Made by a program: the position numbers and the translations under genes. From Dysidea avara (taxonomy: Eukaryota; Porifera; Demospongiae; Dictyoceratida; Dysideidae): a DNA stretch of 64,000 bases. A model generated the notes under the pieces. The model made no database searches. It was not told the origin of the DNA and was given only the letters and a program-made list of their open reading frames with translations. Of this stretch, positions 6,635-63,837 are shown piece after piece. Position 1 is the first letter of the stretch. Every line of letters begins with the position of its first letter. The DNA lies in contig NC_089274.1 in NCBI RefSeq assembly GCF_963678975.1, positions 18,369,633 through 18,433,632 of the forward strand. Reading direction: 5' to 3'.

Positions 6635-9600
6635 ATGGCAGTAAGTTATAACATATTATACTTGTGGATACGACTGGTGACCCTCATTAAATGATGGGCT
6701 ATGCATGTCGCTGTGCCACAAATTAATGAGTGAAGCCTGCCAGTATTTTTTCAAGGGCGATTTATTGAGTTTTCTGGAAAGGGCATAAAGTACCAAAGTT
6801 TATCTGCCCCCGCGTAAGTGTTCAGTGGCCTGGTGTCCTCTCTCTAATTTTTGAGGTAATTAGAACTTTTAACAAAACAAAGATGGACAAAGGAAGCTGA
6901 GCATAAAGCACTGAGCCTGTTTATTATTATATTTATTACTGTGTAAATTCAATTTGAGTACAAACACAGATATTAGGTATAATTACATCGTTAAATAATC
7001 AGTCAATTGCTCTTTAAAAATGTCTAAGGATGATATAGTTACTAAATGATTGGGTAGATTGTTCCAAAGTTTGATTGTTGATGGTAAAAAAGAGTGTAGG
7101 AATAGGTTAGTTCTGGCTTGTGGAATTCTGTATCGTTTGTGGTGTCCCCTGGTGATTGATGTGAGTGGTGTAAGTTGTAGGGTTGGGATCTCTATAATGC
7201 CTGTTGCTTTTGATGGTTCTCTCTCTTCAAAACCTAATAAAACATGTCATTAAGTCAAGTCAATAAGTCTAAGTCCTTGAAATTAGGTTAGGTAATCCTA
7301 AGGCTGCAGCACATGTTGCTGTCAGACCTTCAGTGCAGGTCACTGTAAAGTGTTACTAATAATGATAAACTAATAATGTCTGTTGAAACCAAATGTACCA
7401 TCCTTGTACCAGTTACTAGGAAGTTGCACACATGTACCAAGTTTAATGTTAAGCAGTATCCATGATAATTGATAGCTGTTTACACTTTGAGTAGCTCTAG
7501 ACGCTTGCTTCTAGCCAAGTCTACGATTTTGATGGGTTCGTCATACCATAGATAATGTATGCGTTCCTAATGGATTGGAAATGCCGTGCACCAATACATT
7601 GGGAAATTTGTTGAGTGGCTGTTTGGCTTTCTCTGAAGGCGTGGACATTCCTTTTCTTTTACATTGTTTATTGTGTTGCGTTGTGTACTGAACAAGAACA
7701 CAGCGTGTCTATGGGTACTGGGAGAAATATTGTTTGCGACAGGTGACAATGGCAGGTACGCACCAGCTAATAATTCAACAGCAGTACTATTAGCCAACTT
7801 CTTGTCACTGCTTTTACACAACCAAAGAAATGTGTGATACATTAAAATAAATTTTAAGCTACAGTACTGCTCAGCTTGAGCCAAACAATAGCACAAAGTA
7901 GTGCCTGTTTTCTGAAGTTTTATCGAAGCAGTGGAAATATACAGCAAAGCAGTGAATATCTAGCTAGCCTACTACACTCTACCTGTTACAAGTAGTGTAA
8001 ACAGCAGCAAAGAAACAATGCTACACTTTCTGTTTCTTCAGGAAATTTGCACAACCGTTTTGAAACACCATATTTCACCTTTGAACGTGAATTTTCTTAC
8101 GCTGTTGTTTACTATTCTCCAGCGACCCTACCCAGTCCAGCCTCCAATTAGTGTAGCCTCCAATTAGTGTGGGTGGCAACTAACCCAGCTGTAAACAACA
8201 AACACCAATTTACTGGTTACAAGAACAGCGAAATCTTCCACCTGTCGAGGCCACTATGTAAATAATACGGGCATTTCGATCCATGTGACATACATTATCT
8301 ATGGTCAAACTGAATATGCTAAATATGCAGATCTGAAAAATCTTTTGCACATAATGAAACATATGGCCATGAACCTGACTGCTAACTTGCACCTTGTATT
8401 TTTTGGTGGAGCTGATTGTGTGTTTCAAAATAAATACCCTCTGTAAAGCAGGGTATATTTATGTCTGACCAATTACCATGAACAATGGAGTTAGTTTTTG
8501 GTTGATTACCAAACCACAATAATTGTGTTGTTTTTTTTGCAACCTGTAGTGAGAGATCTGTGGACTCTTACATCATCTTGTAGAAAACAAATCCTTTTCA
8601 AATGGTCCAGTAACAGAATTAGCTTGTTTAGATAGCTAAACTTCTCATCATATGTGTCCCATGTGTTACATAAGTACAAGGAAAATTAGGAATTTTAAGT
8701 TTAAAAAGTAGTGAGGGGAGGTATAGGCTACCTCATCCTTGTTTCATTAAGTTAATATCTACAAGTATAAGGAAAAATTAGGTTCATAGAAACAAAGTAG
8801 GGAAACAAGGGAGGTTGCCTAAGTGTTTTTGGTCTTCTACTAATGGACTTTTACCAAAGGCTTAGCTTTCTTGTAGAGCAGTTATTCTGCGTTATTTGTA
8901 GTATGGGTGTGGTGACCATTTCCAGTGTTCATACTGCTGTGGTGGCAGTAGAGCCACAAGTAACAACTTGTGACGACTTATGTGCCATTGTAATATACTA
9001 AAACCACGCTGTACTGGCAACAACTCGTCTGTTTCTTGACAATATGTTCATTATTGCTACTTTCACAATGCAATATCTAATTTTATAGGAAGCAACAACA
9101 TATAATCCAATCCTTCACTTATATACCCATATAAAACACCCCCAGGTCAGTTAGAGACCGCACCCCCAGATCTTCATGTTTTAAAAACCTCAGCTTTGCC
9201 TCAGTTTTTAAAATTATATCCTAGGTCTCTAACCTAAACTTATCTTCATTTATAGTAGCTGCATGACAGGTTCTATAAGTGCTTCCTTACATGCTTGCCT
9301 ATAGACATGACTCCACAACTATAGAGACTATGTTTGTAATTTAATACACTGACGGAAATGCGAAGCAAGAGAGTTAATTTTGTAAGCTGTATTTCCCTTT
9401 GTGAGGCATTTATACACTAGCTCAACTGGGTAATACAACCACCTGCAAATTAAGACCAAGAAATTTTGGCCTGCAAGTGACTGGCTTAGGCAGGTTCCAC
9501 TGTAGTAGTGTTGAAAGGTGAAGTATGAATAATACTAGGTGAAGTACGAATAGTACTAGATATCATTTACTCATGATTGTGATTTGCTTACTGCTACCAG

Positions 9601-12600
9601 GAGTTCATCGGATCCTATGGACAAGGGAGTGTGTAACTCCGTACACTACCAATACTGCGAGCAAAATTCAGACATGGCGTCCAGTGTTACTATGTATATA
9701 GTTGGTTACATCATTCTTACGCGCAACAGGGATACACTGAATGGACTGCTATTCCATCATCTTGTGTGAAGGTAGCAAAGCTGCTTTGATAGGAAGCTTG
9801 TTTAGTCGAAGGAATATAGTCAAGTGTAGTAATTTCACATGATTAGTGACTGTAGAAAGACTGTCCTGCTAAGCTTCCTCTGCCATGCCATTACACTTTG
9901 TTTCCGTAGCTTTGCTTTGTTGCAGTAGAAATGTGATGTACTCAAGCAGGCACCACCACATAATATCCTAATTAGGAAATTTCAAAAGTTACTTATTATA
10001 GTACATGGCAGCCATGTTTGAATTTTGCTCTACATGCTCCCTTGTCCATAGCGCTCCTGCTGCTATGCAACCCCATAGTTGTTGGTTTTGGTTAGTTGCT
10101 GCCTTTGTGTAGTAGTTCTGTAACAAAATCCATGCAGTGGATCCTTGGTTACTTGGACCTCTGTTATCTAAAAAAGTGACTAAATTAGAGTATTTTGTCC
10201 ATGTTGTTAGTGTAAGTGTATGCTCTATTGGAGAGTTTTGTTGTGGTCTTTATTGAAAACTTTTGTTAACCTTGGAATGATAACTGATTATCTACTGTGT
10301 TAGCCACAGTGTTTAACTGATCAAATACGCTGTACTGTAATTAGAGCTCATGCAAAGTTAACTAAAGCACGTACAGTACAGAGAAGTGCGTACCACTAGT
10401 ACATGTGCTGTAATACAAAATGTCAGGCTTTTTGGTTGGATTAACTAAATAAATATTGTATACAGGGCTGGGACGAAGCTTCAAATGTTTGTGGGTTCAA
10501 AGGTCAAGTAAAAACTGCGAATTTTAAAACTCTCCTTCTAAGCTTTGTAATGCACTCATAGCCTATGAAAGAGTTACAAATAAAGGTTGTTATCTTTATT
10601 GCATCTGCTTATTCATCTTGCACAATGAATGTTCGTCTTTGCGATCAATCTTCATGTGCTGCCCACTTTTAAACCATCACAGTTTAGCTTGCTACCATAG
10701 TTGTAGCCTTACAACACCTTACAAAGTGGTAGATAATGCACAGAAAATGTCCTTTTAACTATTATTTGGTGTTTGCCTATGCATGATTGCAGTATACCGT
10801 AGAGTCTGTTTGTTAGGCGCACGTATATATTAAACGCATATTACTTGTTAGGCGCATACTCGTTTCTCATATCTAATCATGGTTGATAAGCGCATGTAGA
10901 TGAACACGAAGCTCCAACATGAGACGAAGCTATACAAGAGAAAATTGCTAGAGGTTTACTAATAGTGAAAAGTCCGAAATTTCACAAAGTACAAAGCCAA
11001 AATACGTGCCTTTGCTATACTTACCAAGCGAAGCGGTCTTCTGTAGTATGCTCCATACGAAGGATTCAGTGCACAAAAATTGTACTCAAAATGGTAACTG
11101 TAATGACTGCAATTCACAAAAGTGAATCCATAATAATCACGACAAGGTTTATTTGTTAGGCACATGCACTTAATGTCTATATGTTAATCACAATATTTTT
11201 TCGTGAACTTTTATTAGGCATATGTGTCTAACAACCAGACTCTACGGTAGTGGGCATGCCCATTTGCAATCAATTGATCACGTCATTCAGTACCGCTGCT
11301 ATGCATTTTCCAAATCAAATGCTTACAAACTTATAATTAAATAGGATTAGAAAAATAAAACTTGAGAAGGATGTGCATAAATGCAAAAAAAACCTGTAAC
11401 TTGAAAGCTAACACCGAAACTTCGAATGTTCAAACATTTTATTAGCAAATATTCGAAGGTAAATTTCACTATTCATCCCAGCCCTAATTGTATATGAGAG
11501 TTTGTACTAGTGTGATTGTTCCTGTGGTTATGTCCTTTTGTACACACAGCATTACAGGACTATTGAAGAGATGTACTCTGACGGTGCTCCAGAGTCCCTT
11601 CTTGATCCCATTACTCACTGCATTTTCTGTGATCCTGTGGTGTCTTCCAGTACTGGCAAAACTTACAGTAAAAAAACTGTCACTGACTTTGGCAATAAGG
11701 ATCCTTACAGTATGCAGCCGGTAGGGACACTTATTCCCAACCGAAACATGCAAGAAGTACTTGATGAGTATTACAAGGAGAAATTCAAGGAGACACTTTC
11801 CAGCCTTGTTGACCAGCCGATTGATTGGAATGTAGATAGAATCATCGAACTGGTTGCAATGGTAGTGAACAGGTCTGATCTTCAGATCTGTTTGGATGGT
11901 CAGCGTTTACTGGTGGAGGTCATTCAAAGTAGTGCAGACTCTCAACTTCTACGGTTTAAGGAAAGGCTTAGTGCCACTGGCCTGAATTTTATTGGCCAAT
12001 TGGTTGAGAAACAGACTGCCACTGAATTGGCACGCCGACTTGGAATTGGTGCTACTGGCTACTGTGTACCTACTGCAGGTTATCAACCTCCCACCATTTC
12101 TCAACCTGTTCGAATTCTATCCCCCATCGATAGGAATAATTCTGATGAGGAAGGTGAAGATGATTATGATTTCTCTGACACTGAGTCTACTACTAGCTCA
12201 GTTGGCTACACTGAGGATAAAACATATGTGTTTGTTGGTAAAATGCCAGCCAAGACTACATTCAAAGACGTGTTAGGGCACTTTTCAAAGTTCAGGGACA
12301 GCATGACTAAAAGGGTGATGTTTATTAAGGGTTCTAATCAGACCATGGCTCGGTTAACATTTACATCATCAGCAGTGGCATCTGATGCAATAGAGCTGCT
12401 CAATCGGTCTGTGTTCCCGAATTCCTCATCTCGTATTGTGGTCAAGCTTTGGGTTAACAAAAAAAGGGAAAGGCAATCAAAAGATGCTAAACCAAGTTCT
12501 CCACGAAAACATAGTGAACCTGAGGCTAAGCAAGGTGTTGAGGGTGCAGGAAAAAGGACTGATGTTTACGTTGGGAACTTGCCTTCCTCTGCTACAGAAG

Positions 12601-15600
12601 ATGATATCAGGTCACATTTTAAAAAGTTTAAGCCACGCATTCGTCGGGTAGAAGTTATCAAAGACCCTAAAACAAAGACACCTAAAGGGTTTGCAAGAGT
12701 TATATTCTCATCTCTTGAAGCAGCACAGGCAGCAGTAACACAACTACACAAATCACAAATGCCCCAATCAGAGCAACGTCTTATTGTTAACATTTGGAAG
12801 GAGAAATCAGACAAACAGACGAAACCATTACCAGAAGAGTCAGCTCCGAATCCTGAGAAAAAACGAGGAAGAAAGAAAAAAGAGGAGAAGGAATCACCGC
12901 CATCAGGTGTAGCAATTCGCGAAGTAGAACCTGTTGAGAAATGGGTTGGTATGAATGCAAAAAATGTCAGTGTTAACATCACTGGAGATCAGTTGAGGAC
13001 TATGTTGGGAAATTATGGCACTGTTAAGCAGTTCATTGTTACTCCTGCACCAGAGGGCAAAGATGTGTACAAGGCCACAGTGTACTACAGCAGCAAGGCA
13101 GAAGCAGATGAAGCTATTGCCGAGCTGAATGAGAAAAAGTTGGCAGGTGAAACTATTTATCTTGACCTTTTAAGTGAGAGTGCTAGTTCTCCAGTGAAGT
13201 CCCCTGGTGCCCCTATTGAGACTTTTGGTGTGTACGTTGGTAAGATTCCCAAATCTTTAGGTAAATCAGAGTTGGAACAAATTTTTGCCAAGTATGGAAA
13301 GATTTCAAGCACATTTCTCAAGCCTGGTAATAGTTTTGCATATGTCAACTACTACAATTTGGGTGATGCTCAGGCCGCTTTGGACATGAACAATCGAGAA
13401 GTACATGGGAACAAGCTTAGAGTAAACATGGCAACCAAGAAAGGTGGTACATCTTCCACATCTGATGATCCTACTCCTTCATTGCCTGCTGTCCCTCCAT
13501 CACCTAGTAAGCCAGTAGTGACCACTCCAAGCATGCCTGCTAGTTTTACTCCATCACCTAGTAAGCCAGAGACCACTCCTAGCATGCCTGCTAGCTTTAC
13601 TATACAAATCAAACGCCTCAGTTCAATTACAACTAAAGAGAGCTTGTCCAGTGTAGTTCAAGCTTATGGAGTCTTATCCAGTCCAGTACATATTATAAAT
13701 GGTAACCCACGTTATGCCTATGTGAACTATACTACCCTTGAGGCAGCCAACAAAGCACTTTCATATCTGCATAACTATCCACTGGATGGTAGCCTACTGC
13801 AAGTAAAGGTGAAGAGCAAGATGGAAATGTCACCCCCTCCAGTGTCACCAGCTCCTGATCCCCTTCAAGGTGCAAATACCTATTTCGGTGCCTCCCCAGT
13901 GTCGTATTCACCTCCCACGATGGTTTCCAGCCAACCATATCAGTTTCCACAGCTATCTACTCCTAGCCTCCCAAGCCATCCTCCTCCTCCTAGTTCGCTT
14001 CAAAGCCCCAGGTAAAATTCATATGTATATCAGCTTGTTATACTCCATATGTATGTGTGGGTTTATGTACATCACTGAGTATTGTATACTATAATCACAT
14101 GCAATAGTTTGTATTTTATGTTCATTTAGTTCTATGATGAAGAATATTCCAATGTCAGCTCGTCTGAACCAGTTTCTTAATGAGCGAATGGATCTCAAGT
14201 TAAGAGAATTTAAGTCTTTTGGTGGCTCAGTGGAATGGCAGAATAATATGTTGGTAGTCTTTGCTCCTTCTATTCCAATCCTTGGTCGGTTTGAGGAGGA
14301 GGTTCTTAAACAATTTGATGAACACCGCATTCCACTAATTAGTGAGGACTGGAACAAGTTGATGCAGATGCGTCCTGACAAGACCAGTGCATTCCAGCAG
14401 TTGATGCTCCCTTATCGTACTAATGATAATGTTTGTGTTGAGCCTGATAACTCCTCTCTAGTTGTGTGTGTTGTGGGGATGAAAGGAGCAGTACAAGATG
14501 TGGTAGCTACTATTACTGCTGAACTAAACAAGGAGATTGTTGTTGAACAGTAAGTATCTACTGCCTGTGTCTATTGCATATCAGTTTTGTGAAACAAATC
14601 TTGGGGGTGCTATATTTCCATGTATAAAAGCTCATGCCAGTGTTGATTTTTTAAACCAGGGGATTGTACAGAAACGTACCCTTGGCATTAATCATAACTC
14701 AGTGTTTCATTTAAGCTTTACTGTGACAGTTTCTATCAATATATCGAGGCAGCACTAGTGAACTGTTCGGATAACTGAACTCCATACAATTAGATACAGA
14801 GCTCTGTTGAAATACTCTAATATAAGATACACTTGTACTCAAAATACTCTAATAAAGCAGTCATTTCCAATTTTGGATAAACAAGGGTACGGATAACTAA
14901 GGGTCTACTGTAATAGTAACTGAATAGAGATCTATACACATGTATGTATAAATGTACAAGCCTGATAAAATTTGCTTACCTCAAGTTCCCAAAATAAACA
15001 AGGAAGTGTAAAACGTTCTATGACCTAGGCTTCTTATTAAAAATAGAATCCATAATCAAGGGCAGTGTAACAAGGAAGTGTGAAATCAACTCCAAGCAAT
15101 AAATGAATGTTGGTCTCCTTAGTGACTTGGACGATGAGTTGTTTGAAAGAAGTAAACACTCAGGCTGTAATTCAAGACAAATGCTGTGTCTAGTTAAATT
15201 TGTTGAAGTTACAAAAATATCCGAGTAAGAAGAATTGACATATAGTATCGATATAACATGGTGGTAATATAGCCGATCAGTTATGTTGATGTATTCATAA
15301 TGATGTGGGGGAAGCCAGACATACCATATTCGACCAGTTAATGACTGTGGCTACTATAACTTTCAGCAAGGAAAAACCTGCAGCGGCTAGTATCCGAGGA
15401 TGGCTACTATGGGCTTGTATGGCAGCAGCCCATGGTGTTTATACAGATTCACAAGTAACTGACCTTGTTTAACCATCCTTCAATAGTATCATTCATTGTA
15501 ACTTCTCTCAAAAAACTTTGCCTGGTTTCTGCTTCATACGTTTCATAAGTGTCTTATCAACACTTGCATCAGTATATTCAGGTACATGTACAAGCCGCAG

Positions 15601-18600: not shown

Positions 18601-21600
18601 GGTGATTTGCATACCTCCCTTAACCCCAAATTATTGTAACCAACCTAGGTTCAATCTCTGCCTAGGTCATAGCTTTTTTTTTTTCACTTTTGGGACCTTT
18701 TTAGACCTTTTGATGCACCTTTTTGTTCTAGTGCTTGGCGGTATGGCATTTGTAATCCCGGTATCCGGTATGGAAAACATGACCCGGTATTTCACTTTAA
18801 GATTTTACATGGTAATGTACTTTTATTGCATATATGTGTGTATATATATATCATGCTTTTAAAGAATGTATTTTTTAATTATACAACCAAGTATTAAAGA
18901 TAATACGAAATGTGGTTAAAATTACATCATAAATAATGAATAAATAAATAATAAATAATGTTTAAGAAAACTACAAAGCCTAAGGCTTCACATGTTGTAT
19001 CAAGAGACGATGGTATAATGGATAGGTGTTTTCGTGGAGGTGATAGAAATGTATGACGATTCTATTTAATGCCAATCAAAACAGCACATGACGCCCATTA
19101 CTAATAGACCAGGCTGATTCTAGACAAGCGAACTACTGTTCATTTGTGTTCGAAAGTGTGTGACAGCGACTATTTTGATTGGAAGGCGAGTGGTTGCTAC
19201 GCCTGTTTATTGAACAACATGATTGGAAGTTGCTACTAATTGCTGGAAGTTAGTTTGTGTTGGTTAAGGTTAAAACACTTAGAGAGTCTTGTTTCTTTAG
19301 TCTTGCATAACTAGGCTACCTTCACTTGTGTATGGAATGAGAGAAAGCCTCACCTGGCAGGCCATTGTGCAAAGAAGGTGCAGTTTCCAGCTGGTAAGTT
19401 TGTGTGACGGTGCATAGCTCTCCACCTGAAGCCTTTTAGTGCCAGGAGTGCCCAGACTGGTCACTGATATGGGCCCTGAGAAAACTACATAAATATCCAC
19501 TGCTTAATTGCATCCCACGTACTGCCTTGCTGGTCGGTGAATTTGATATTCCAGTGGATAAATCCTGGGCATCATCGTGTTCTCCTAGTCATAGGGAGTT
19601 CAAAAATCCTTGTTTCATCTTCATACATAGGTGGGTGTCTGAGTTACGGGCATTTGTTTATGTTGTGGTGACTAAATAATTTACAATGATTTTTCTTCAA
19701 TGAATTCTCCTTCCTTCCGGATCACAGAAGAATACCTTTGGCAAAAACTATACCTTGGTGGATTCACAAATTCATGGCAAATACAATGAGCAAAGATTCA
19801 ACTCCGTACGCCATTGTATCAGTAAGTTATGATGGTTTATGTAAGCGCCTGTATATTATTTTCTCGGTGTCTTCTGTACATATTGATTTATTCCCTAGTC
19901 CGGATGTCTACTGCTGTATTTCCCACACTGCTTATCTTATGAAGCTGAAACTTAGCCAATCCACTCCTCTGTCCCTGTAGACAACAAAAAACCAGTAAAA
20001 CGAATTTTAATAAATGTGCATATTATATCAACGGGTTTCTAAACATATATACATAACTCAGATATCAGTTGTAGGTGACAGACAGTTGAAATACTCTGCT
20101 TTTATCACAATCTTACCGTGGTCTGCTCTTGGAAACTCCAGCCATGTCTTAATCCAGCACTCTATTCCATCCTCATTTGAACATACCATGTAACATAAAT
20201 TGTGTACAATAGCATAAAATTAGTATAACAAGTATTCGTTGGATATTTAAGCTTTACTGCTTGTAGGCGTCAGATTCAATACCATGACTCTCACAATTTA
20301 AAGTGCAATCTCACATTCTCACATCTCCATGGTCATATAATCACTGATTGTAATTGCATACTAATGCATCCCTTATGTTTATGTGCCAGTCAATTCCTCT
20401 AGAATGTATTCCTGTGCATCTTTTCTACACTGTGTTGGCCATGCACTGTTTGCACATGCTCCATTAGTAGGTTCTCTCGTTGGTGATTGTACTTGGTTGT
20501 ATTTGCCCTGGGCCTATATAGTAATAATAATATTGTTTAAACATTTTCATATAAGTGATATAAGGTAAAGGTATAGTTCTAGTCAACAGTAAACTATAAA
20601 ACATGGTATGCTACTGAACCAATTGAGGTTGTGTGCCAAGAAGGTCAGCATGTTTAGTTTATCACTAGCAGGCTTCTTTTCTTCGTAGATATGTTACCTG
20701 CTGTACTAAACAAGCACTCAGAGGCTGAACTTGAAGCGCAAATAGACAAATACTTTTTAGCAAGATGGGATAAATTAGGAATGATGAATGATTTATTTTT
20801 CACCACTCCAGTGGGTTATGGATCAGGTTTGATAGCCATTATGTATCGATCAATTTCAGCTTTGCATGCAGCTTGTGGAGATGAATCAGTTTGCGAGTCT
20901 GACTGCTGCTCTCTTGAGGCTCTTAAGTAGCTACTTAACTTTCTCTTCTTGGCTACAGGGAGTGCAGGCTCTCCTTCTGTAAGTTGTGTTACTTGTGTAG
21001 TATCCGTAGAATCTGTACCATCTGTAGTACCTGGTTTAGCAGCCTGGGCTTGTTCATTCTTGGAGGTTACATATGCTGCTCCTTCTTCTACCACTCAACT
21101 GTTAACCCTTGACATTCCAACATCATCAGGGACATAGTCTGCAATAAACCTGGGATCCAAGAAAGATGCTACACTCATCAAACGTCTACACAATGAGTCT
21201 GAATACTTGTCATCCAAATAATTTAGGACTTTGCATTTAATATCTGCTGTCAGGGTTGTATCATCTTCACCAACACTGCAAAGTGCAAACATCATATAAA
21301 ATTTCAAACTGGTAAAACTGTAGAAACAGACACATAGTGCTCTGCAGACAACCCATCAGTAAAATCACTCAAGAGGTCCAATGCTGCATTCAATGCTTCG
21401 AGCACATCCAAGTCCTGCTAAGTGGGAACAAGATGAGAATATTTTCTGTCTCCACATAAAACTTTCCTGATAGCTTTCTCTTGCTCCACTACTTGACTGA
21501 TCATCTTCTGAGTTGAACCCCAGCACATCTGACAGTCAGTGACTAAAGAGTGTTCAGGTAAGAACTCTTTTTGAGCATCCTTCAAGTCTCATTCTTTTTA

Positions 21601-24600
21601 TAACTGTAAGAAAATTAACTTACTAGCTTTTTGTACACAGCCACTAGATTAGAGTTAGGTGGTATACCGGTACATTTAGTAATTTTCGATACCTGAAGAC
21701 CACCGGTATTACTAATTGCAATACCGACATACCGCGCATGCTCCAGATCACGTGTCATCATGTCAGCACATTTCTCGTGGCAAAAATGGCCGATTCTACT
21801 GATTCTACCGAGTCTGTCAATGCTTTGGTGCCAAAGAAGAAAGCCATTTCTCCAGTGTGGGACCACTTTGGACAATGTGTCGATGGTGAAGGGAGGGTGA
21901 TAGATAGTGATGTAGCTGTTTGCCGTCGATGCCAAAGTAATGTGCGGGCTAGTGGTGGAAACACTTCTAATCTACTCTCGCATTTGAGGGTTCACTACCC
22001 AGGACAGTACACGCAAGTACTCCAGTTACAAAAGACGAAAGCGAAGGAAAATGACAAGAGAGTACATGTACGTGTCCGTCTGCCCAAGCCCAGTCATCCA
22101 TCCCAGAATTGTTCAATAAAGCTCAGAAATATGAGAGGACCTCACGACGATGGCATGAAATTACGGACTCCCTGACATATTGTAGAAATGTTTCCTATCT
22201 ACACAACAAAAAAGGATGGATTTCAGTGCTTTGTAGCAACTCTTGATCCCAGGTATGATATACCTTCTGCAAAGTACATGTCTGGCACAGCAATACCTGC
22301 TCTGTATGAGAAAACCAGGGAGCAGGTTGCCAGCGATATTAATAAAGCCAGGTATTTTGTAGCAACCACAGATATGTGGTCAAGCTCTACTATGGAGCCT
22401 TACTTAAGTTACTCCATTCATTTCATTGATGATAATTGGATATTACAGACAAAATGTCTACAAACATTATTTGTGCCAAAAGATCACACTGCCGACAATC
22501 TTTGTGAGGTAATGACTGAGACACTGACCCAATGGAAGCTTGAGATGGATTGGCAGGTCTGCATAACAACAGATAATGGCAGTAACATCACATGTGCTGC
22601 TACAAGTAGACTTATGTGGATGCGCTTGCCATGTGTTGGTCACTGCATGCTTACACCTTGCAGTGGTTAATTCAACTAAGGATGATTCAAGAGTCCAGCG
22701 TACTGTCGCGTTGTGTAGGAAGCTTGTGTCCACGTTCTCACATAGCTGGAAGAAAAAACGTGATTTGAATAAGGCACAATCAGATCTTGGCTTACCTCAA
22801 CACTCTTTAGTTACAGATTGTGTAACTCGATGGGGACCTCAACTCAGCATGACTGGGAGAATTCTTGAGCGGGAAGTCTGTATAAGGCAAGTGATATTTT
22901 TGTAGTATCGTTACCGACTACTAATTTCTTAGTACTGCTGTACCCTAGCAGCCACTACACGATCAACCTGCATATCACTTTTCAGAATGTTTCCTATTGC
23001 AAGGTAAAGATTATGTCCAAAGCAAGGTAAGTGTGTCCAGTTGAGAATTGTGTTGACAGCTCATAAAAATAATACTACCATCGTTAGTAGTAAGACAGAC
23101 TTGATTCTTGCTTTCAAGACCCCATGACTGCAAAGTATCTGTGATTGCCTGAGCAAGGTTTTCACCATTGTGATCTTAAGGAAAATACACTGTACCTAAT
23201 GCAAAGGTACGTAATTCCCACTCCTTAGAAACATAGTGCATTGTGTAACTCATGTAGGGATCACTGTGGACACTGGACCACGTGTCAGTAGTAGCTGAGT
23301 AAAAGTCAATACTGCTTATGTCATAAAGCACAGATGGTCTCGTACGTTCATATAATTGTGGAAGAGCTGTTTTTGTAAAATATTTTCTGCCTGGCAACTC
23401 GTACTGTGGATCAAATTGTCTCAGCAAGTTGGTAAAACCTGGCTTTTCAACAGTATATATGGACAACATATCTTTTCCACTGCAATACGTGATGGCATCA
23501 GTCAGTCTATGCCATTTCCTGCTGTGTCAATCATATTTCTGTGTCACCTTGAGTGAATCTACGCATGTTTGCCATGGAGGATGTATTTCTTCTTGGCTTT
23601 CGGAGCAGTGGAGGAAGCAGCAGTGGCAGAAAGTCTTCAAAATTTGTTGTGCTTTTCTGGATGGTGCGCTCGAAGATGGGGAATCAGATTTGAGGTATTT
23701 CCTCTGTGAGCAGCAACATTTTTTTTACATGTTCGGCACAAAGCCACTTCCCTTCTCACATGGGTATCATCGTGGTATCCAATGAAATTCCATATTGCCA
23801 AGAGTTCATAATATAGAGACGGAGGGAGAGTGTCCAACACTGTATTACCTGGTCAAAACACACTGCATTCAAAGATTGCATCATATCCTGAATATTTCAG
23901 TATACTTCAGTATAATTCCATACAAATTCGTCACTTGGCTTCACCTACTGAAGAACGTTGATAGGTATTGATTTATCAAAGGGAAGCATTCTTAGTGCTT
24001 AGCTTTATTAGAATTAACACCCTTTCAGTAGTGATTAATAAGTTTTGGTGCTGATAGTCATTGCACAATCTTTGAACGCAATGTGTTTTGATCAGGTAAT
24101 ACAGTGTTGGATATTCTCCTTCCCTCTCTATATTATGAACTCTTGATATTGCTGATTTAGTTTTTTCTTTGCTAATAAATCATCGCTAGTATTGTTAGAA
24201 GAAATATCAGCTGGACTGGTGTCATCAATCTCGTCACCTTGCTCATCGTCCATTTTCTAATTAACAAAAACGTGGTCTTTACACATGCGCAAGAAAATCA
24301 GTATTTCAAAAATGCTATACCTTTGAACCAGTTTGTGTAAAACATCGTAAATAGCTAATTTCCCGGTATACTGCCCAGCACTACCTCCAGCAGGTTTCAG
24401 AGTAGTCTGTGGCTTTACGTTGGAACGATTGCCAAAAATCTGGGAGAAACGAATCACCACCAAACCTCTACACAAGGATGCACCCTTCACATAGATAGGC
24501 ATACTTCTCCAAAGCAAAGAACTGAGAAACTATGTTTGAAAATCTCTGCATGGGTGTTAGGGAATTATATAAAGGTACATACCAAAGCAATAACTTGTTT

Positions 24601-27600
24601 TAAATATCTATATGTGTACTGAATCAGTAAGTGGGAGATATCAATTTGTTTGATCTTTTGTTAGAAGTATACGTTGTATGTTGAAATGCATACTAGCTCT
24701 CTCTTTCATAGGGAAAAGATGATGACTTTGCTTAAACTCAATCCTACCTTGAAGGAACAAGCTCAAAACAATTTTGGAGCTCTAATGGAGGGATTCTCTT
24801 TTGGGTCCACCAAAATCAGTTTTACTGGAAGTAGTCATGCAGTGTCTCAGGCAAGGGAATGGTTTAACTCACTACTCAAGCAGTACATAGTAGCCAGTCT
24901 TCTATGTCGCAGAGTTCTTATTCCTTCAGCACTTGACCGTATGTCAACAGAATTATTGTCCGTTGTTCTGTGTGTTAAGTGTGATGATGGGACCATTTGT
25001 TATGCCCAGTACTTGACCGTCAAAACTGTACAAGTGGTTTTGTTGGTTTGTGGGAGCAAACCATTTGTAGAGAGAGCTGTAGAGATCTTTAATCGTCCTG
25101 AAGAGAGAATCATAACCTTTGATACTATGGAGGCATTGCACAAGATGAAGTCTCAGCCATCTTATGATTTTAGTTCTCTATCAGAGCAGCATCAAGTTTA
25201 CATCCAGGAGTCAACTGGGCCTGTGTTAACCATCCAGAGTTATTCAAAGAATTGTATTGCAGCAGTGGAAAGTATCCTGAATCAGGCAAAGTTAAGTCTT
25301 GAGAGGTGCTCTGTTGTTCTTCAAGGCTCCAAAGCTAAGATTGCTCACCTCACTGCAGCATTTGCTCAGCACCCTGATCAGGCAAAGATCTTCTTTGATG
25401 CCATTTATCAAGCTACTTCAGTGGAAACTTTGTGCTTGGATAAGGAAGTTAGGCTGACTGGATCAATGGACAAGATAAAAGAGGCAGAGAAAATGATCAA
25501 TAACAGTGACTTCTTGAAGGGCTTCAAGTGTGAAACATTCGAATTTGAGTGCCACCCAAACTTCAAGGGTCAGACGGAGAAGTATCTTAAGAGTGACTTT
25601 GATCGATGCCAGCTTGATATCGTTGTTAGGTGTTACTACCAAAAAACTGAAAAGTTGTCAAGGCAAACTTCCAAAGGAGATCTGACAAAGTCAAAGAGTG
25701 CCATCTTCTATGTAGAAATTGAGAGTGAAAATGATGCCCATTTTGCAACTGCTTCTGGCATTATGAAGGTGAAGTGATAAAGGATTGTGTGTATTACTGT
25801 GGTGATGTTCATCTTATTAGCTACTAGTGCAATAAGAAAATAAAGTAGGTTTCTAGTTGTGAAACAAGATATATGAATGATGGTAGCTACTACAATATAG
25901 TATGGGAAATCCCTACATTAGCATCTTGCCACCATCTGTTCAATGCCATAGTAGGAATTTTCCCACGTAGCTATGTTGTAATAGCTACCATCATTCATAT
26001 CTCTTGATTCACTACTTTTTTTCGCTGGAACCTTTAAATTAACTGTCCTGCATAGTTACCATAGCTGGGGTATACGTGTGTAGCTGTGACTGCTTTATTA
26101 GAGTACTAGCAGTGCTATCTGCCCTCTGTGCAGGTATAACTGAATGATTAATGTAATATAGTAGTATACAACATTTACTTCAATGTGTAACTACTACATG
26201 ATAGATTGATACTGCAAATGTCGTCATGCAATTGGCATAATACCAGTCTATCATTATCATGTGGCTACACTGCTTTGTTTGGCCTCTAGCCTTGCGACTG
26301 TAGTCAGGCAGGCAGGAAGACCAAAAATTAGGTTTGGCAGTTTTAATTAAAAATTAATCCAATATTTGGTCTTCTGCATTTTCTTTGTTTTAATGCATAG
26401 ATTTGATGTTAGGCAGGCAAGCAGAGAGGGCAGACCAAAAATTGGATTTTCGTAATTCAGTATTCATCCTTCTGTGTTTTCTTATATTTAACACTGGATT
26501 TGATGTTAGATTGCGCTAAGACTATTCCATAAAGGTGATTTCATCATGCTATGATGGTTTTTAATAGCAGCATCTTGGTGGGCACCATTTGTTTTGGGGG
26601 GGCCCTTCTAAACAAACGGTATTACTGTATTGTTTGATACATTTTCATTGCACATTTTCATGCACATCATGATCTGTATGAAGAAATTTTACGTATATAT
26701 CATTGTATTACGTAAGTTTTTTTGTTTTTTTTTTCATTTAATGCTGCAATGTGTATAAGTAAAATGCTAGGCTAGCTAGAATATTAGTGTAGTCCCACAG
26801 TTGGTTACATAATACTTTTTTACTTGTAGGGTTTAAAGCCTGAAACAAGGTACATCCGGATGCCCAAGAAAGAGTTTGAGTGTTTGTCTCATGCTGTGAA
26901 GTCACATGTACTAGACATTGAGGGTACCCACAAAGTTCGATTAGATCTCTATGATAAGAGCAATACTGCTGTCATCCATGGTCTTACTGCCACTGAAATT
27001 AATGCAGCAGAAGATGAGATTGGAGCATATGTCAGTGCTAATGTGGAGATCAAGTTGACAGTGAAGGTATCTAAGCATCAGAAATATTATCTGACAGGAA
27101 AATGTAATAAGCTTCAGGATAATAATTGCAAAATTCTGTTCCCCAAATTGGCTGACTTCAAGAAGGAAAATGCAGGGGATACCCCACAAGCTGATATCAC
27201 ACTGCAGGGGGAGAAATGTCATGTTGAAGTGGCTAAACAAAAGATTGATGAGATCCTCAGTAGCTTACATCATCGACTGGTCAAGAAAAGGCACAATCAA
27301 TATGCAATGATGTGGAAGAGAAAATGGGAAGAAGTCAAATCGCAAGAAGAAGCTAATAGCAATGTTGTAATCTTTACCTGGTTTGATTTTGATGAGAAAG
27401 AAAAGGGTCAAAAGTCAAAGAAACCGAAGGAGGTAGGGGTTGGTGTTGAAATCACTATTATTAGTGATGATTTCCTGGTAGTTTGTCAGGTTGAACAGAA
27501 TGTTGTTAGCGTTGCAGACACAATTATGACACGGCCAATACTAGCCAGTAGGAACCAATGTAAAGCAGTGGCAGATGCACTTAAGAATAAGAAGCTGATT

Positions 27601-30090
27601 TTGCGGGAGAGCCACAATGTAGAGTTAGAAATTGATTGGGATAAACCAGAGTTACTTTTGCTTGCTCCAAGCGGATCTAGTGATGATTTTGAGGGAGCCT
27701 CTGCTACTTTGCTGGCCTTCATACATGGAGAAGCTGTTAAAAGTGACAATATCAAACTTGGTGAGCCTGCTTTAAGCCACTACATCCACCAAAAGCAGCA
27801 GTGGTCAGAAATCATTAAAGTTGCTAAGCAATGCTCTGTGAGAGTTAAGCACAATAATCGAGTTCTTGAAGTATCTGGTAAAGTACCTGATGTGGTGAGG
27901 GCTAAAGGTCTGCTAGAGCAACTGCTGCAAACTTTTAGTTCACATTTAGGAACACAAGAGGTTAGTGTTTCTTCCTTGTATGAACCTGTACTGAAAACGC
28001 TGGAGTTTCAAAATCTTGTTTCAAGGTTGAGGCAAGATTTATGTGTTGCTGTTACATTTCATAATGTGCAGCGAAGCAAGAACACAGTAACACTTTGCAA
28101 GGCAAACATTCAGCCAGAAGGCTGTGATAGGCCTTGCTTCATAGAAATATGCTATGGAAATTTGGTAAATGAAACGACTGATGTAATTGTGAATGCTGCC
28201 AATAGTGAGTTGCAGCATATTGGTGGCCTAGCAAAGGCCATATCTGATGCAGGTGGCCCTGCTATACAGGCGTACAGTGATGATTATGTAAGGCAGAATG
28301 GTATTGTTAAGCCCGGCCATCTTGCTTGTCTGCCAGCTGGCAATTTATCTTGCTCTGTTGTGATGCATGCTGTTGGTCCAATGTGGAAAGATGGGGGACA
28401 CAGTAAGAAAGAAGAGCTTTATGCAGCTGTGTCCACCAGTTTAGTGGAGAGTGACAAACGTGGCTACAGGTCTGTTTCCCTTCCTGCCATCAGTGCTGGC
28501 ATTTATGGCTGTCCAGTAAAGGATTGTGCTTTGTTGTCTATTAAAGCTACTGCAGACCTACTCATTGGCAATTGCCTCAAGTCAGTATCACACATTAGGT
28601 TTGTGCTGTTCACTTGGGATGCTGCAAATGCTTTCCAGGACTCCTTTAAGGATTGCTTGCTAGAAGATAAAAGCTTCAGAGCTACTGCAGAAGTAGTGGC
28701 ACAGCCTTTCCCATCTTCAGGAGTAAAGGCTGAGTGGTTTTGGGAGGATGATACTAAAAGGTTGCAGCCTTATACCAGCCAGGTATCCGTGACACTCTCA
28801 CATGCATATTCTGTGTCACCTAACCAGGCTCTAATGATGCAGATTGAAGGTCAAGAGTACACGATCTACTTTGCTGACATGGTACAGGTTAATAACAGGA
28901 CACAGAAACGGCGAAGAGTACACAGGAGGACTCTGGGCGCTATCACTTGGCAGTACAAAGATGACAATAACTCCTGGGCACCTTATGCACCTGAACATAA
29001 TGATGTGCTAGAAGTGATGTACGAATCAAAAGTACCACAGCGACTAGAAATTGGCAATTGGAGCTATGCAATTGATTTTCAAAACATGGAACAAATCAAT
29101 TTCACTACCAGGAAGAGGAGACCAATACGTCGTGTAGTAGGTAGTGTTGCTACCCCTGGAAAAGCTCTATTGAAGCAAACATCTGTCAATGCCAGCTTGT
29201 CATTGAATGGTCCTCATCAGAATCTTGCACAAGCCTGCAAGATGGCAGAAAATTGTTTTGAGAGGTGCTTGACATCTTGTGAAATTCCTCTTTCAGATTC
29301 TTTATCTTATCTTGCAGAGAAAATAAAACGTCTTGGCCACAAGTATAATGTTGAAGCAAAGTATATTCCACATACTAAAACTGTCACATTTCGTGGTGTT
29401 GCAGATGGTGTTACAAAGGCTAGACTTGCTGCTCAAGATATCCTCCTCAGCGTGGGATCTAAGAGTAATGTGAAGTTCCCTCCGGAGTGGGAAACTGATG
29501 CTAACTCACCAAACGTAGTGATTGTAGAAGTCAGATCAACTTCTCATGAGTGGCGAAGGGTGTCACAATTGGTACTCTCCACATTACCACAGGTAAATGT
29601 GCTGAAAATTGAGCGTGTACAAAACCGTTGGTTGTGGGAAAAGTACATTCTGAATTGCAAAAGAATGAAAGAGAAAAATAAGGGAGTCATAAATGAAAAA
29701 GAACTATTCCATGGCACCAGTGGCACCTCACCTGATAAGATATACGCTGATGAAGAGGAAGGGTTTGATATGAGGTTCGGCCGACAAGGCATGTGGGGCC
29801 AGGGAAACTATTTTGCTGAGAAAGCTGAGTACTCAGATACTTATGCATACCAGGGTCACAATGGTTTGAAGCAATTCTTTTTAGCTAAAGTTCTCACAGG
29901 GGATAGCATATTGATGAAATCTGATGGTAAACTGCGAATGCCACCTTTGAAGAGTGGTGGTGGTAATGTGAGATATGATACAGTGTGTGGAGTCACTCAT
30001 GGATGTCGAGTATACATAGCATACTCCAATGATAAGGCTTATCCTTTCTACCTTATCACTTACAAGTACAAAGGATTTAACATTTTCTAA
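6635..30090 (+). CDS. U-box / 5xRRM / KH-like / macro / 2xWWE / PARP14-like protein, 2401 aa
   Basis: Coding exons: 6635-6640 (ATG GCA, then GTAAGT), 11550-14011, 14130-14549, 24712-25768 and 26830-30090. Every junction has GT/AG and the phases (0, 2, 2, 0) match, giving 2402 codons with the stop. Domain order: U-box (about residues 18-75), helical region, RRM-like domains (about 226-303, 340-420, 473-543, 560-631, 684-760), PARP14-type KH-like region (about 820-1740), macrodomain (1751-1912), two WWE (1948-2086), PARP catalytic domain (about 2240-2401). Vertebrate PARP14 has RRM, KH-like, macro, WWE and PARP parts but no U-box. Predicted role: an ADP-ribosyltransferase that also recruits a ubiquitin E2, probably with nucleic-acid and ADP-ribose binding, in cytosol or nucleus. 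Exon 1 is the least certain part; a start at Met10 (11571) is the alternative. Confidence 0.9.
6890..7255. repeat. probable LINE-derived sequence in intron 1
   Basis: Sequence directly before the shared core at 7256-7358. A short frame at 7050-7253 (starting MGRLFQSLIVDG) has no known domain. It resembles DNA around 42.3 kb (AGATTGTTCCAAAGTTTGAT-like words), so it is more likely transposon-derived than a gene. Confidence 0.3.
7256..7358 (+). repeat. dispersed repeat core, copy 1 (partner 42058-42155)
   Basis: About 100 bp, from AAGTCTAAGTCCTTGAAATT through CTAAGGCTGCAGCACATG to CAGGTCACTGTAAAG, is nearly identical to 42058-42155. At 42 kb this core follows the LINE fragment 40487-41893, so it probably represents the 3' UTR of that LINE family. 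Confidence 0.75.
7551..8306. mobile_element. MITE family with CATAGATAAT ends, copy 1
   Basis: Begins CCATAGATAATGTATGCGTT and ends ATACATTATCTATGG, with further inverted similarity (GGATTGGAAATGCC against GGGCATTTCGATCC). Internal words such as GTGGACATTCCTTTTCTTTT and TTAGCCAACTTCT recur in the second copy at 16806-17228. No transposase frame is visible. It lies in intron 1 of the PARP gene. Confidence 0.7.
8307..9586. other. PARP gene intron 1, central part: no gene seen
   Basis: AT-rich non-coding sequence. Around 9150-9235 a small imperfect inverted repeat is visible (GGTCAGTTAGAGACC against GGTCTCTAACC, with CCTCAGCTTTGCCTCAG between). No domain-bearing frame on either strand. Confidence 0.6.
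9588..10068. mobile_element. foldback-like inverted repeat element
   Basis: The left arm (CTATGGACAAGGGAGTGTGT, then GAGCAAAATTCAGACATGGC) returns as its complement near 9990-10068 (GCCATGTTTGAATTTTGCTC, then GCTCCCTTGTCCATAGCGCT). The arms are 75-95 bp with an indel, and the loop is about 310 bp. No clear target duplication. Confidence 0.6.
10137..10200. mobile_element. degenerate Tigger/pogo-like end
   Basis: CAGTGGATCCTTGGTTACTT resembles pogo/Tigger termini (CAGTNGACCC...ATCCG). It is followed by GTGACTAAATTAGAGTATTT, a decayed copy of the window-wide CTCTAATAGAGCAGTCA motif. No opposite end was identified. Confidence 0.4.
10463..11486. mobile_element. hAT non-autonomous element with perfect 8 bp target duplication
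   Basis: The left end CAGGGCTGGGACGAA and the right end TTCATCCCAGCCCTA are inverted. Both sides are flanked by ATTGTATA (10455-10462 and 11487-11494), an exact 8 bp duplication typical of hAT. It carries a second element (10797-11247) nested inside. It ends about 60 bp before exon 2 of the PARP gene. Confidence 0.85.
10797..11247. mobile_element. Tc1/mariner/pogo-type MITE nested in a hAT element
   Basis: The ends CCGTAGAGTCTG and CAGACTCTACGG are perfect inverted repeats flanked by TA (10795-10796 and 11248-11249). GTTAGGCGCA recurs inside. The 65 aa frames on both strands at 10959-11165 show no transposase signature. Being inside 10463-11486 makes it the younger insertion. Confidence 0.75.
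11550..14011 (+). CDS. PARP gene exon 2: U-box and five RRM-like domains
   Basis: The acceptor is TACACACAG and the donor is CCCCAG then GTAAAA. The U-box shows the usual landmarks in order: LLDPIT, CDPVV, GKTYSKKTV, DPYSMQPV, LIPN; like other U-boxes it lacks zinc-binding cysteines. A helical stretch follows, then an acidic linker (DEEGEDDYDFSDTES). RRM-like repeats begin at TYVFVGKMP (12219), DVYVGNLPS (12561), KNVSVNITG (12957), GVYVGKIPK (13224) and FTIQIKRLS (13596). The second and fourth keep good RNP1-like strands (KGFARVIF, SFAYVNYY). A low-complexity Pro/Ser linker with a duplicated PSKP..TTPSMPASFT block separates RRM 4 and 5. The exon ends in a Pro/Ser-rich tail. Confidence 0.93.
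14130..14549 (+). CDS. PARP gene exon 3: start of KH-like region
   Basis: The acceptor TTCATTTAG follows a 118 bp intron; the serine codon is split AG/T. The donor is GAACA then GTAAGT, leaving CA of a glutamine codon. The 139 full codons (SMMKNIPMSARLNQFL onward) look like the alpha-beta KH-like repeats between the RRMs and macrodomain of PARP14. No catalytic motif is present. Phase continues perfectly into exon 4, 10.2 kb away. Confidence 0.88.
14842..14915 (-). mobile_element. Tigger/pogo-like terminus with subterminal CTCTAATAAAGCAGTCA
   Basis: On the minus strand it reads CAGTAGACCCTTAGTTATCC and then, after TTTATCCAAAATTGG, GACTGCTTTATTAGAGTATT. The first part matches pogo/Tigger termini and the second is the window-wide short motif. 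A similar arrangement occurs at 15848-15916. No full element with two ends was delimited. Confidence 0.5.
14916..16800. other. PARP gene intron 3, first part: repeats but no gene
   Basis: Non-coding AT-rich DNA. Near 15848-15877 another Tigger-like end is visible in reverse (GAGGGTCCACTGTA), and near 16569-16592 a reverse copy of the short motif (TGACTGCTCTATTAGAATAT). No frame with a recognisable domain. Confidence 0.55.
16806..17228. mobile_element. MITE family with CATAGATAAT ends, copy 2
   Basis: Second copy of the element at 7551-8306. The ends AATAATATACGTGTTCCTAT and CATATGTGGTATATTATCTA are inverted, each followed inwards by GGATTGGAAACGCC or its complement. It shares the internal words GGCATGGACATTCCTTTT, GCTTGCGACAGGTAACAATG and TTAGCCAACTTCT with copy 1 but is shorter (about 420 against 755 bp). 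Confidence 0.75.
18140..18690. repeat. two diverged SINE-like units in tandem
   Basis: Two units of roughly 200 bp (about 18140-18380 and 18430-18690) share the order TGTGCTTTCGTTT, AAGGCCAAGGTGTAG, ATTCCTTTGAAAACCACAG, a tRNA-like stretch and a TTTTTCTTT run. The first contains the tRNA-like part at 18288-18357, the second only a B-box-like GGTTCAATC. Probably tRNA-derived SINE copies, strongly diverged. Confidence 0.4.
18288..18357 (+). tRNA. tRNA-Ala(AGC)-like sequence, probably a SINE head, not a functional tRNA
   Basis: AAGTGGTAGAACG resembles an A box and D arm, CTAGCAT an alanine-type anticodon loop with AGC, and CGTGGGTGCGAATCCACG a T arm with B box. The anticodon stem has two mismatches and no acceptor stem pairs, so it should not be counted as a working tRNA gene. 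Confidence 0.25.
18729..18790 (+). mobile_element. isolated hAT-like left terminus
   Basis: TAGTGCTTGGCGGTATGGCA followed by CCGGTATCCGGTATGG resembles the terminus at 24383 read in reverse (TAGTGCTGGGCAGTATACCG). It may be the far end of the hAT whose transposase is at 20590-24254, but the 8 bp flanks (TTTTGTTC against CCTCCAGC) do not match, so this is unproven. Confidence 0.4.
18900..20580. other. PARP gene intron 3, no gene seen
   Basis: AT-rich DNA between the SINE-like units and the hAT transposase remnant. Frames at 19297-19500, 19738-19980 and 20383-20568 have no domain similarity that I recognise and no splice-supported neighbours. Confidence 0.55.
21649..22951 (+). mobile_element. 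second hAT element, internally shortened, nested in the first
   Basis: The transposase relic starts MADSTDSTESV at 21785, with a BED finger (CRRCQSNVRASGGNTSN) and hAT N-terminal part (TTDMWSSSTMEPYLSYS, CVGHC), with frameshifts near 22170 and 22610. It stops after VTRWGPQLS; the dimerisation domain is missing, so it cannot have moved itself. Flanks CCACTAGA (21641-21648) and CCACTACA (22952-22959) are a 7/8 match, as expected for a hAT duplication. Removing it with one flank rejoins the host transposase frame across DRVVAVYKKLV. Confidence 0.85.
23799..24145. mobile_element. 347 bp foldback MITE inserted in the hAT transposase
   Basis: About 84 bp at each end are inverted copies (CAAGAGTTCATAATATAGAG at the left, its complement at the right). 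Both sides carry ATATTGC (23792-23798 and 24146-24152), a 7 bp duplication. On the minus strand, deleting it plus one duplicate gives TCAGCAATATGGAATTTC, coding SAIWNF, which fits the expected start of a hAT BED domain. Confidence 0.8.
24255..24711. other. end of intron 3: hAT terminus and unassigned sequence
   Basis: Holds the hAT-like terminus ending at 24383 (minus strand TAGTGCTGGGCAGTATACCG) and then about 330 bp without a recognisable feature up to the acceptor TTTCATAG of PARP exon 4. Confidence 0.5.
24712..25768 (+). CDS. PARP gene exon 4: KH-like repeats
   Basis: Acceptor CTCTCTTTCATAG; the glutamine codon CA/G is completed here. Donor ATGAAG then GTGAAG, phase 0. 352 full codons of repeated alpha-beta units (for example VVLQGSKAKIAHLTAAFA, EVRLTGSMDKIKEAEKMI), the pattern of PARP14's KH-like modules: a beta strand, a G-s-x-x-x-I turn and a helix. 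No catalytic residues. The in-frame ATG at 24674 belongs to the intron and is not the gene start, since phase and protein continuity both require splicing at 24712. Confidence 0.88.
25858..26013. mobile_element. 156 bp foldback MITE in PARP intron 4
   Basis: The arms AAGATATATGAATGATGGTA (25866) and TACCATCATTCATATCTCTT (ending 26005) are inverted, extending to GTGAAACA and TGATTCAC at the outer edges. Inner words (GGGAAATCCC, AATTTTCCC) also pair loosely. No open frame. Confidence 0.7.
26300..26510. repeat. direct duplication of about 108 bp in intron 4
   Basis: AGGCAGGCAGGAAGACCAAAAATTAGG and the following TTCTGCATTTTCTTTG ... GATTTGATGTTAG occur twice, diverged by about one fifth. Non-coding. 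Confidence 0.55.
26830..30090 (+). CDS. PARP gene exon 5: KH-like end, macrodomain, two WWE, PARP catalytic domain
   Basis: Acceptor TTTACTTGTAG, phase 0, entering at GLKPETRYIRMPKK. After more KH-like units comes a macrodomain (about 28137-28620) with VNAANSELQHIGGLAKAI and SAGIYGCP, the ADP-ribose binding loops. Two WWE domains follow (WFWEDD...MVQVNNRTQKRRR and WQYKDD...MEQINFTTRKRR), which in the family bind ADP-ribose or partners. The C-terminal PARP domain has ELFHGTS (His2276), GNYFAEKAEYSDTYAY (Tyr2309) and KAYPFYLITYK. The third triad position, aligned with tankyrase, is Val2376, so mono-ADP-ribosylation is expected. The stop TAA is at 30088-30090. No standard AATAAA is seen in the next 200 bp. 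Confidence 0.95.
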   Translation, partial: GLKPETRYIRMPKKEFECLSHAVKSHVLDIEGTHKVRLDLYDKSNTAVIHGLTATEINAAEDEIGAYVSANVEIKLTVKVSKHQKYYLTGKCNKLQDNNCKILFPKLADFKKENAGDTPQADITLQGEKCHVEVAKQKIDEILSSLHHRLVKKRHNQYAMMWKRKWEEVKSQEEANSNVVIFTWFDFDEKEKGQKSKKPKEVGVGVEITIISDDFLVVCQVEQNVVSVADTIMTRPILASRNQCKAVADALKNKKLILRESHNVELEIDWDKPELLLLAPSGSSDDFEGASATLLAFIHGEAVKSDNIKLGEPALSHYIHQKQQWSEIIKVAKQCSVRVKHNNRVLEVSGKVPDVVRAKGLLEQLLQTFSSHLGTQEVSVSSLYEPVLKTLEFQNLVSRLRQDLCVAVTFHNVQRSKNTVTLCKANIQPEGCDRPCFIEICYGNLVNETTDVIVNAANSELQHIGGLAKAISDAGGPAIQAYSDDYVRQNGIVKPGHLACLPAGNLSCSVVMHAVGPMWKDGGHSKKEELYAAVSTSLVESDKRGYRSVSLPAISAGIYGCPVKDCALLSIKATADLLIGNCLKSVSHIRFVLFTWDAANAFQDSFKDCLLEDKSFRATAEVVAQPFPSSGVKAEWFWEDDTKRLQPYTSQVSVTLSHAYSVSPNQALMMQIEGQEYTIYFADMVQVNNRTQKRRRVHRRTLGAITWQYKDDNNSWAPYAPEHNDVLEVMYESKVPQRLEIGNWSYAIDFQNMEQINFTTRKRRPIRRVVGSVATPGKALLKQTSVNASLSLNGPHQNLAQACKMAENCFERCLTSCEIPLSDSLSYLAEKIKRLGHKYNVEAKYIPHTKTVTFRGVADGVTKARLAAQDILLSVGSKSNVKFPPEWETDANSPNVVIVEVRSTSHEWRRVSQLVLSTLPQVNVLKIERVQNRWLWEKYILNCKRMKEKNKGVINEKELFHGTSGTSPDKIYADEEEGFDMRFGRQGMWGQGNYFAEKAEYSDTYAYQGHNGLKQFFLAKVLTGDSILMKSDGKLRMPPLKSGGGNVRYDTVCGVTHGCRVYIAYSNDKAYPFYLITYKYKGFNIF

Positions 30091-40142: not shown

Positions 40143-40486
40143 TTAGTGGCATGCAACTGCAGTCCCATTTTAACTAGCAAACTAAGAGCTACAATACAAC
40201 TTGAGCTTACAGATTTTTTCATCTTTCTCTTAGTTCACCTCTTAGTTGACTGTGATGAATTCTACTACACGTCCGGCGACAGCACTACCTAGGCTTTTAT
40301 CAAGAAGGGCGGGGAATTTTGTGGTAGCTAACGCTAACGCCACGCCCTTTGTTTTGTTGCCACACCCTTTGTTTTGGTGAAATTTTATTATTATCATTAT
40401 TTATTGATAATCAGCAGGACCCTCAGGGGTATAATGCTGATGTGCAATTACATGTGTACAATTTCAATTAGTTACTTAACTATAAA

Positions 40487-63756: not shown

Positions 63757-63837
63757 CTAAATATCGTTACTACTCATAATTAGAAACATCAACCATGCAT
63801 ACTTAGTTACACATGCCCACATGTTTTTGGGAGCATG

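Follow-up and report, generated by a model that had tools for sequence, protein, structure and literature searches.

A PARP14-like ADP-ribosyltransferase gene that carries a U-box of its own lies in the 64,000-nucleotide stretch analysed here (the window, C3:18369633-18433632, from a genome of 550.8 Mb in 108 contigs). The gene product, of ~2390-2400 residues, is predicted to comprise a U-box, five RRMs, KH-like repeats, a macrodomain of the PARP14 MD1 type, two WWE domains and an ART domain with an H-Y-V triad. On balance we favor the reading of one PARP14-like gene encoding a mono-ART with an inherited U-box, a judgement that concerns the gene and leaves the use of an E2 to be weighed separately. 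In the antiviral immunity of vertebrates, PARP14, PARP9 and DTX3L tie ubiquitin signalling to ADP-ribose signalling, and an animal PARP14-like protein with its own U-box, near two siblings that appear to show traces of a lost one, bears on how the ubiquitin/ADP-ribose link arose. Within one organism, copies that have or lack the E3 arm can be set side by side, one sibling (A) having a 90% identical ART exon.

The domains named by an earlier note on this DNA were recovered by Pfam in the order given there (U-box, five RRMs, Macro, two WWE, PARP), and these parts lie in long stop-free frames on the + strand. Splicing of positions 6635-6640, 11550-14011, 14130-14549, 24712-25768 and 26830-30090 (all +) reproduces the proposed chain of 2401 aa with a single terminal stop, matching phases and GT-AG at every junction. 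The 14011/14130 junction, which belongs to this model, is added here to the junctions that the note proposed for testing. Exons 2 to 5 of the five-exon model are supported, and the 6-base exon 1 is not. At 834 codons, the exon 2 frame is much longer than expected by chance: 30 dinucleotide shuffles of window positions 1-31000 gave stop-free frames of at most 168 codons. Exon 1 as proposed (6635..6640, +; ATGGCA/gtaagt) has an ATG, a donor and six coding bases, 'MA'. A minus-strand blastn search of the window against the 120 kb containing both paralogs (E up to 1e-10, alignments >100 nt) revealed no counterpart of this exon; no alignment started before window base 12546. Position 6635 was dropped as a coding exon in view of this lack of a listed counterpart in the paralog region, and 6635-6640 could be a 5'UTR exon or a chance occurrence. 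All three copies of the gene, the window copy and paralogs A and B, have a splice acceptor exactly 21 nt upstream of an in-frame ATG inside exon 2, and therefore translation may start at ATG 11571, which is Met10 of the model and would yield a protein of 2392 aa.

Exon 2 (11550..14011, +) encodes the U-box, an uncharacterised stretch and the five RRMs (12162..13862, +), which match PF00076 (RRM_1) with 180 bits in 5 stretches; A is 51% identical over query positions 205-771. The KH-like repeats that follow are of weak similarity, with KH_1 at 22.5 bits in exon 5, just above the cut-off of 21.5, and KH_PARP14_2 at 19 bits in exon 3, under a cut-off of 27. Exon 3 (14130..14549, +), with this weak PARP14-type KH, is 65% identical to A and 68% to B. 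Exon 4 (24712..25768, +), 81% (A) and 79% (B) identical in the codon alignment, encodes divergent KH-like repeats with weak sub-cut-off KH matches. The match to KH_PARP14_6 is also under its cut-off, and no KH profile was seen across an exon junction when Pfam was run on the joined exon pieces.

Exon 5 (26830..30090, +; 89.8% identical to A) encodes KH-like sequence, the macrodomain, two WWE domains, the ART domain and the stop. The macrodomain (28189..28530, +; PF01661, 106.3 bits) is closest in the PDB to PARP14 macrodomain 1 (3vfq/3q6z), and Macro matched in one stretch, not as three tandem macrodomains of the PARP14 type. A coral MD1 macrodomain is described in a passage of PMC10221186 as an active hydrolase in assay. 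The two WWE domains (28720..29133, +; start set by motif) match PF02825 with 99.7 bits in 2 stretches. The ART domain (29542..30087, +) scores 49.9 bits against PF00644 and matches PARP14 (6we3) with an E of 2.9e-24. Its triad is H2276, Y2309 and V2376 in the numbering of the 2401-aa model. The His and Tyr are kept in 18/18 aligned rows, and the third residue is V or I in the PARP14-like rows. These rows derive from 30 fetched PARP loci, 16 of which had frames >150 aa and were joined by the window and A (14 loci dropped); among them L028 and L030 repeat the rows of A and the window, and L026 and L027 seem to belong to PARPs of another kind. The H-Y-V triad predicts mono-ADP-ribosylation, and the domain is probably an active mono-ART.

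The region C3:18250001-18370000 (120 kb), compared with the window gene, contains two paralogs. Paralog A lies ~64 kb from the window gene on the opposite strand and has exons 2-5 in the same order (exon 2-like frame, 18317307-18314017; exon 3, 18313917-18313501; exon 4, 18309267-18308206; exon 5, 18307993-18304742). Paralog B (C3:18271769-18278150) has exons 2, 3 and 4 and matches exon 5 over no more than its first 73 residues, and we read it as a PARP-less RRM/KH copy or a pseudogene. As judged by eye from the alignment, junctions 2/3 and 3/4 are at the same positions in the window gene, A and B; the position of junction 4/5 is shared with A, and for B the observation of 4/5 is limited to the acceptor. 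The exon 2 protein gave 11 matches from 49 candidates in the genome (E up to 1e-5), namely the window itself, seven pieces in two adjoining frames and three weaker RRM matches (C10, C3). PARP matches numbered 63 from 86 candidates (E up to 0.001), and 10 of these, the window's included, reside in exon 5-like frames 1043-1126 aa long. A tree built from 14 of the genome's PARP frames places the window exon 5 and that of A together as a pair (support 99/100). A hAT-like element, by our reading, is located beside paralog B (C3:18279222-18280763).

That the U-box and the PARP14-like ART belong to one gene, as the earlier note had it, is almost certain from the sequence comparisons: the U-box and the five RRMs lie in one open frame (834 aa), and the paralogs tie the RRM exon to the KH/macro/WWE/PARP exons. 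A pair of genes, one for the U-box and RRMs that stops near 14.6 kb and one for the KH, macro, WWE and PARP parts that starts from 24.7 kb, could be argued from the 10.2-kb length of intron 3, its 21 AATAAA/ATTAAA motifs and the transposon-like fragment inside it. This fragment, a BED-finger transposase-like remnant outside the protein (21648..22670, +), has a zf-BED match of 33.4 bits in its first frame and no Pfam match in its second, and we read it as a hAT-type element. Paralog B, however, joins exons 3 and 4 over ~0.2 kb at the same splice positions, A holds the exon order with a 4.2-kb intron, and the exon 3 donor and exon 4 acceptor agree across all three copies. We rejected the two-gene model, which we consider highly improbable, on these exon spacings and splice positions. 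Because the same splice positions are joined over ~0.2 kb in B and 4.2 kb in A, the length of intron 3 in the window gene is probably secondary.

Divergence between the window copy and A decreases along the gene, with dS/dN values of 1.44/0.49 for exon 2, 0.67/0.22 for exon 3, 0.27/0.09 for exon 4 and 0.19/0.05 for exon 5. The corresponding dN/dS ratios are 0.34, 0.33, 0.33 and 0.27, that of exon 2 being unreliable because a dS of 1.44 is near saturation. Ratios against B are 0.36-0.40 (exons 2-4), and those between A and B are 0.60, 0.56 and 0.37 (exons 2, 3 and 4). These ratios, which apply to the exons shared with the paralogs and not to the U-box stretch, for which there is no second copy, indicate purifying selection on the exons common to the window copy and A. 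The fall in dS from 1.44 (exon 2) to 0.19 (exon 5) suggests that the 3' half was exchanged or converted between copies, and that the N-terminal half is older.

The U-box domain (11586..11783, +) scores 31.8 bits against PF04564 (cut-off 21.4), and 34.2 bits on a shorter piece, and matches the UBE4A U-box 1wgm in the PDB (E 4.2e-4). Its reading frame has the best codon score among the six frames. Aligned with UBE4A, UBE4B, UFD2 and CHIP-like U-boxes, it retains LDPI, CDPVV and a DP motif. Met57 occupies the position of an Arg in the UBE4A, UBE4B and CHIP-like U-boxes, presumably the Arg linchpin site of U-box ligases. In the four other rows of this column there are three Arg and one Gly, the latter in the UBOX5-like U-box of the same genome, so the Arg is not a universal feature. 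Compared to the UBE4A-like U-box, with which it shares 25% identity, the window U-box lacks 3 residues on the N-terminal side of the DP motif and 2 on the C-terminal side. If the E2 contacts of CHIP are I235, F237 and P269, as we assume, the putative contacts Ile23 and Pro54 are kept and His25 takes the place of F237 (Ser in UBE4A). An AlphaFold single-sequence model of the isolated U-box had a mean pLDDT of 52.5 and is not confident. With Met in place of Arg and two shortened stretches, E3 activity is not to be assumed. The earlier proposal of coupled ubiquitin and ADP-ribose marking in cis thus keeps its first element, both domains in one gene, but not an assured ligase, and we give productive E2 binding by the U-box slightly less than an even chance.

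Both paralogs start like window exon 2 and rejoin it at the acidic stretch before RRM1, and Pfam detected no U-box in either. DNA similarity to A and B is found within the U-box coding part at 11602..11714 (+), with local alignment scores of 30 and 25 and many indels. Over the 140 nt that follow the shared start, these scores (30 for A, 25 for B) were reached by 0/1000 dinucleotide shuffles each; as a control, the three following window segments were reached by 123-772 of 1000 shuffles. A score of 25 was reached by none of 3192 background chunks taken from the 120-kb region, exon 2 of A and B excluded. Under stricter scoring the A score was reached by 1 and 1, and the B score by 7 and 3, of 1000 shuffles, and a global alignment was reached by 3 (A) and 1 (B) of 1000. 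At the protein level, local alignment of the A and B N-termini with the U-box was not significant, with scores as high in 1778 and 1263 of 2000 shuffles. The stretch after the U-box (11784..12158, +) has no Pfam or PDB match and no detectable counterpart in A or B.

Because A and B keep DNA similarity to ~110 bases of the U-box coding stretch, the U-box was very probably lost in these copies rather than gained in the window copy. In the simplest account the ancestor carried a U-box, which A and B would have lost through small indels and a deletion of ~0.4 kb; being close relatives, the two count as one witness and not as independent ones. Gain by the window copy alone, through insertion of a U-box into exon 2, would agree with the absence of the domain from A and B at the protein level and with the distribution of U-boxes over the genome, where just one of 9 Pfam matches (31 candidates), the window's, lies within 0.4 Mb of any of the 63 PARP matches. 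We regard such a gain as unlikely: the DNA similarity in A and B is colinear over the first part of the U-box and is reached by few or none of the shuffles and chunks (0/1000 and 0/3192; 1-7/1000 under stricter scoring), and no donor copy is found elsewhere, the U-box with the stretch after it having no other protein match in the genome among 11 scored candidates (E up to 1). Loss in the siblings bears in turn on whether the remaining U-box still works. The same gene could encode a mono-ART that binds RNA and works like others of the PARP14 kind, its U-box being a remnant in decay with no E3 activity, a reading that we take seriously and place somewhat below an even chance. The domain is missing from 2/3 of the sibling copies, apparently by loss, and exon 2 is far more diverged than exon 5 (dS 1.44 vs 0.19); the change of the Arg linchpin to Met, the two shortened stretches and the 25% identity to the UBE4A-like U-box point in the same direction. 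Arg is, however, not constant in RING/U-box ligases: passages of PMC12326332 and PMC12919000 give it as the most preferred linchpin with UBE2D2, yet not always present, and the UBOX5-like U-box has Gly. The frame of the window U-box is also intact, its codon usage is gene-like and its Pfam score is still over the cut-off.

As in Dictyostelium DDB0232928, the U-box of the window protein is N-terminal to a macrodomain and a PARP domain in one chain. We take the Dictyostelium protein to be pARTg. Citarelli 2010, in the part available, describes DDB0232928 as a clade 3 protein with a macrodomain, an N-terminal U-box and a PARP domain, and in one passage assigns the U-box protein another accession, DDB0393590 (PMC2964712). 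Clade 3 PARPs from Dictyostelium species have an extra U-box at the N-terminus according to Perina 2014, whose accessible text uses 'U-box' once, for Dictyostelium (PMC4245714), and a figure legend listing the domains of Dictyostelium macrodomain proteins, pARTg included, names the U-box (PMC5087659). The combination of U-box, macrodomain and PARP is therefore not new, having been published for Dictyostelium, and the earlier note's remark that it knew of no description of this exact architecture applies to its presence in an animal and to the RRM/KH/WWE context. Compared by description only, DDB0232928 differs from the window protein in that these passages name no RRM, KH or WWE for it. No report of a U-box and macro-PARP fusion in an animal was found in the open-access full-text library searched, and an animal case with RRM, KH and WWE appears to be unreported there. 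The sponge Amphimedon has six PARP14-like proteins with macro, WWE and RRM domains, according to the same text of Perina 2014 (PMC4245714). The animal U-box survey of Marin 2010 lists, in its accessible text, seven canonical genes, a weak Act1 and one extra gene in Nematostella, Nv_UBOXa, and the word PARP is absent from that text (PMC3087547). Like the canonical animal set, the genome examined here holds UBE4A-, UBE4B-, CHIP- and UBOX5-like U-box pieces (by our reading; UBE4B via a PDB match). Searches of prokaryotic or viral collections gave no relatives of exon 2 or of the UBE4A-like U-box in viral contigs and none of exon 5 in the genome-contig collection.

With vertebrate PARP14 the window protein shares the order RRM, KH, macrodomain, WWE and ART, the best PDB matches of the macrodomain and the ART domain, and a third triad residue other than Glu (Leu in human PARP14, as read from the alignment). 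PARP14 has 3 RRMs, 8 KH domains and 3 macrodomains according to a 2026 review, in the available text of which 'U-box' does not occur (PMC13224862), whereas the window protein has 5 RRMs, one macrodomain and two WWE domains. The PARP9-DTX3L pair likewise brings an E3 and a macro-PARP together; it consists, however, of two proteins with a Deltex ligase, unlike the window protein, in which no RING or DTC match was found. A passage of PMC10221186 characterises PARP9 as being without canonical ART activity.

The idea of a ubiquitin-ADP-ribose hybrid product, also put forward in the earlier note, finds no support here. Such a product is Deltex chemistry, and no DTC or RING match was listed by Pfam in the four coding frames. 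Passages of PMC7615817 state that lysine is the target of standard RING/U-box ligases and the hydroxyl of ADP-ribose that of Deltex ligases, and that hydroxyls cannot be modified by UBCH5 E2s paired with standard RING/U-box E3s. We rejected the hybrid product as the leading mechanism on this chemistry and the lack of a DTC. Across the genome, 22 candidates yielded 16 DTC matches, ten places being on C10 and one on C13, and separate Deltex genes could perform ADP-ribose ubiquitination in trans.

Most likely the protein is a mono-ART scaffold docked on RNA, whose ubiquitin arm is optional. The RRM/KH part would dock on RNA, the ART domain would mono-ADP-ribosylate nearby proteins, itself or RNA ends, and the macrodomain would read or remove the ADP-ribose mark. 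The U-box would recruit an E2, leading to lysine-linked ubiquitin on the same targets or on the protein itself, and the outcome would be parallel marking from one scaffold with no joint ubiquitin-ADP-ribose adduct. The ubiquitin arm would be optional to the core ART function of the family, because two copies appear to have lost the U-box. A broader scenario, which we think improbable, is that the macro-PARP from which those of amoebae and animals descend combined a U-box E3 and an ART in one self-contained protein. The ancestral form would then survive in dictyostelids and in this one animal gene, other animal copies would have lost the U-box, with the siblings representing a U-box partly erased, and vertebrates would have rebuilt the ubiquitin link in trans via PARP9-DTX3L.

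On C10, the ten DTC places are interleaved with seven PARP matches in two stretches (23.65-24.15 Mb and 26.13-26.96 Mb), and the nearest same-strand pair, a PARP match at 26949535 and a DTC match at 26964230, is 14.4 kb apart. These stretches are possible PARP-Deltex clusters or fusions. Elsewhere in the window, a 1800-aa stop-free frame on the - strand (58364-63766) is NACHT-LRR receptor-like by reading of its translation, and a 473-aa frame on the + strand (40472-41893), read in the same way, resembles the C-terminal portion of a retroelement polyprotein.
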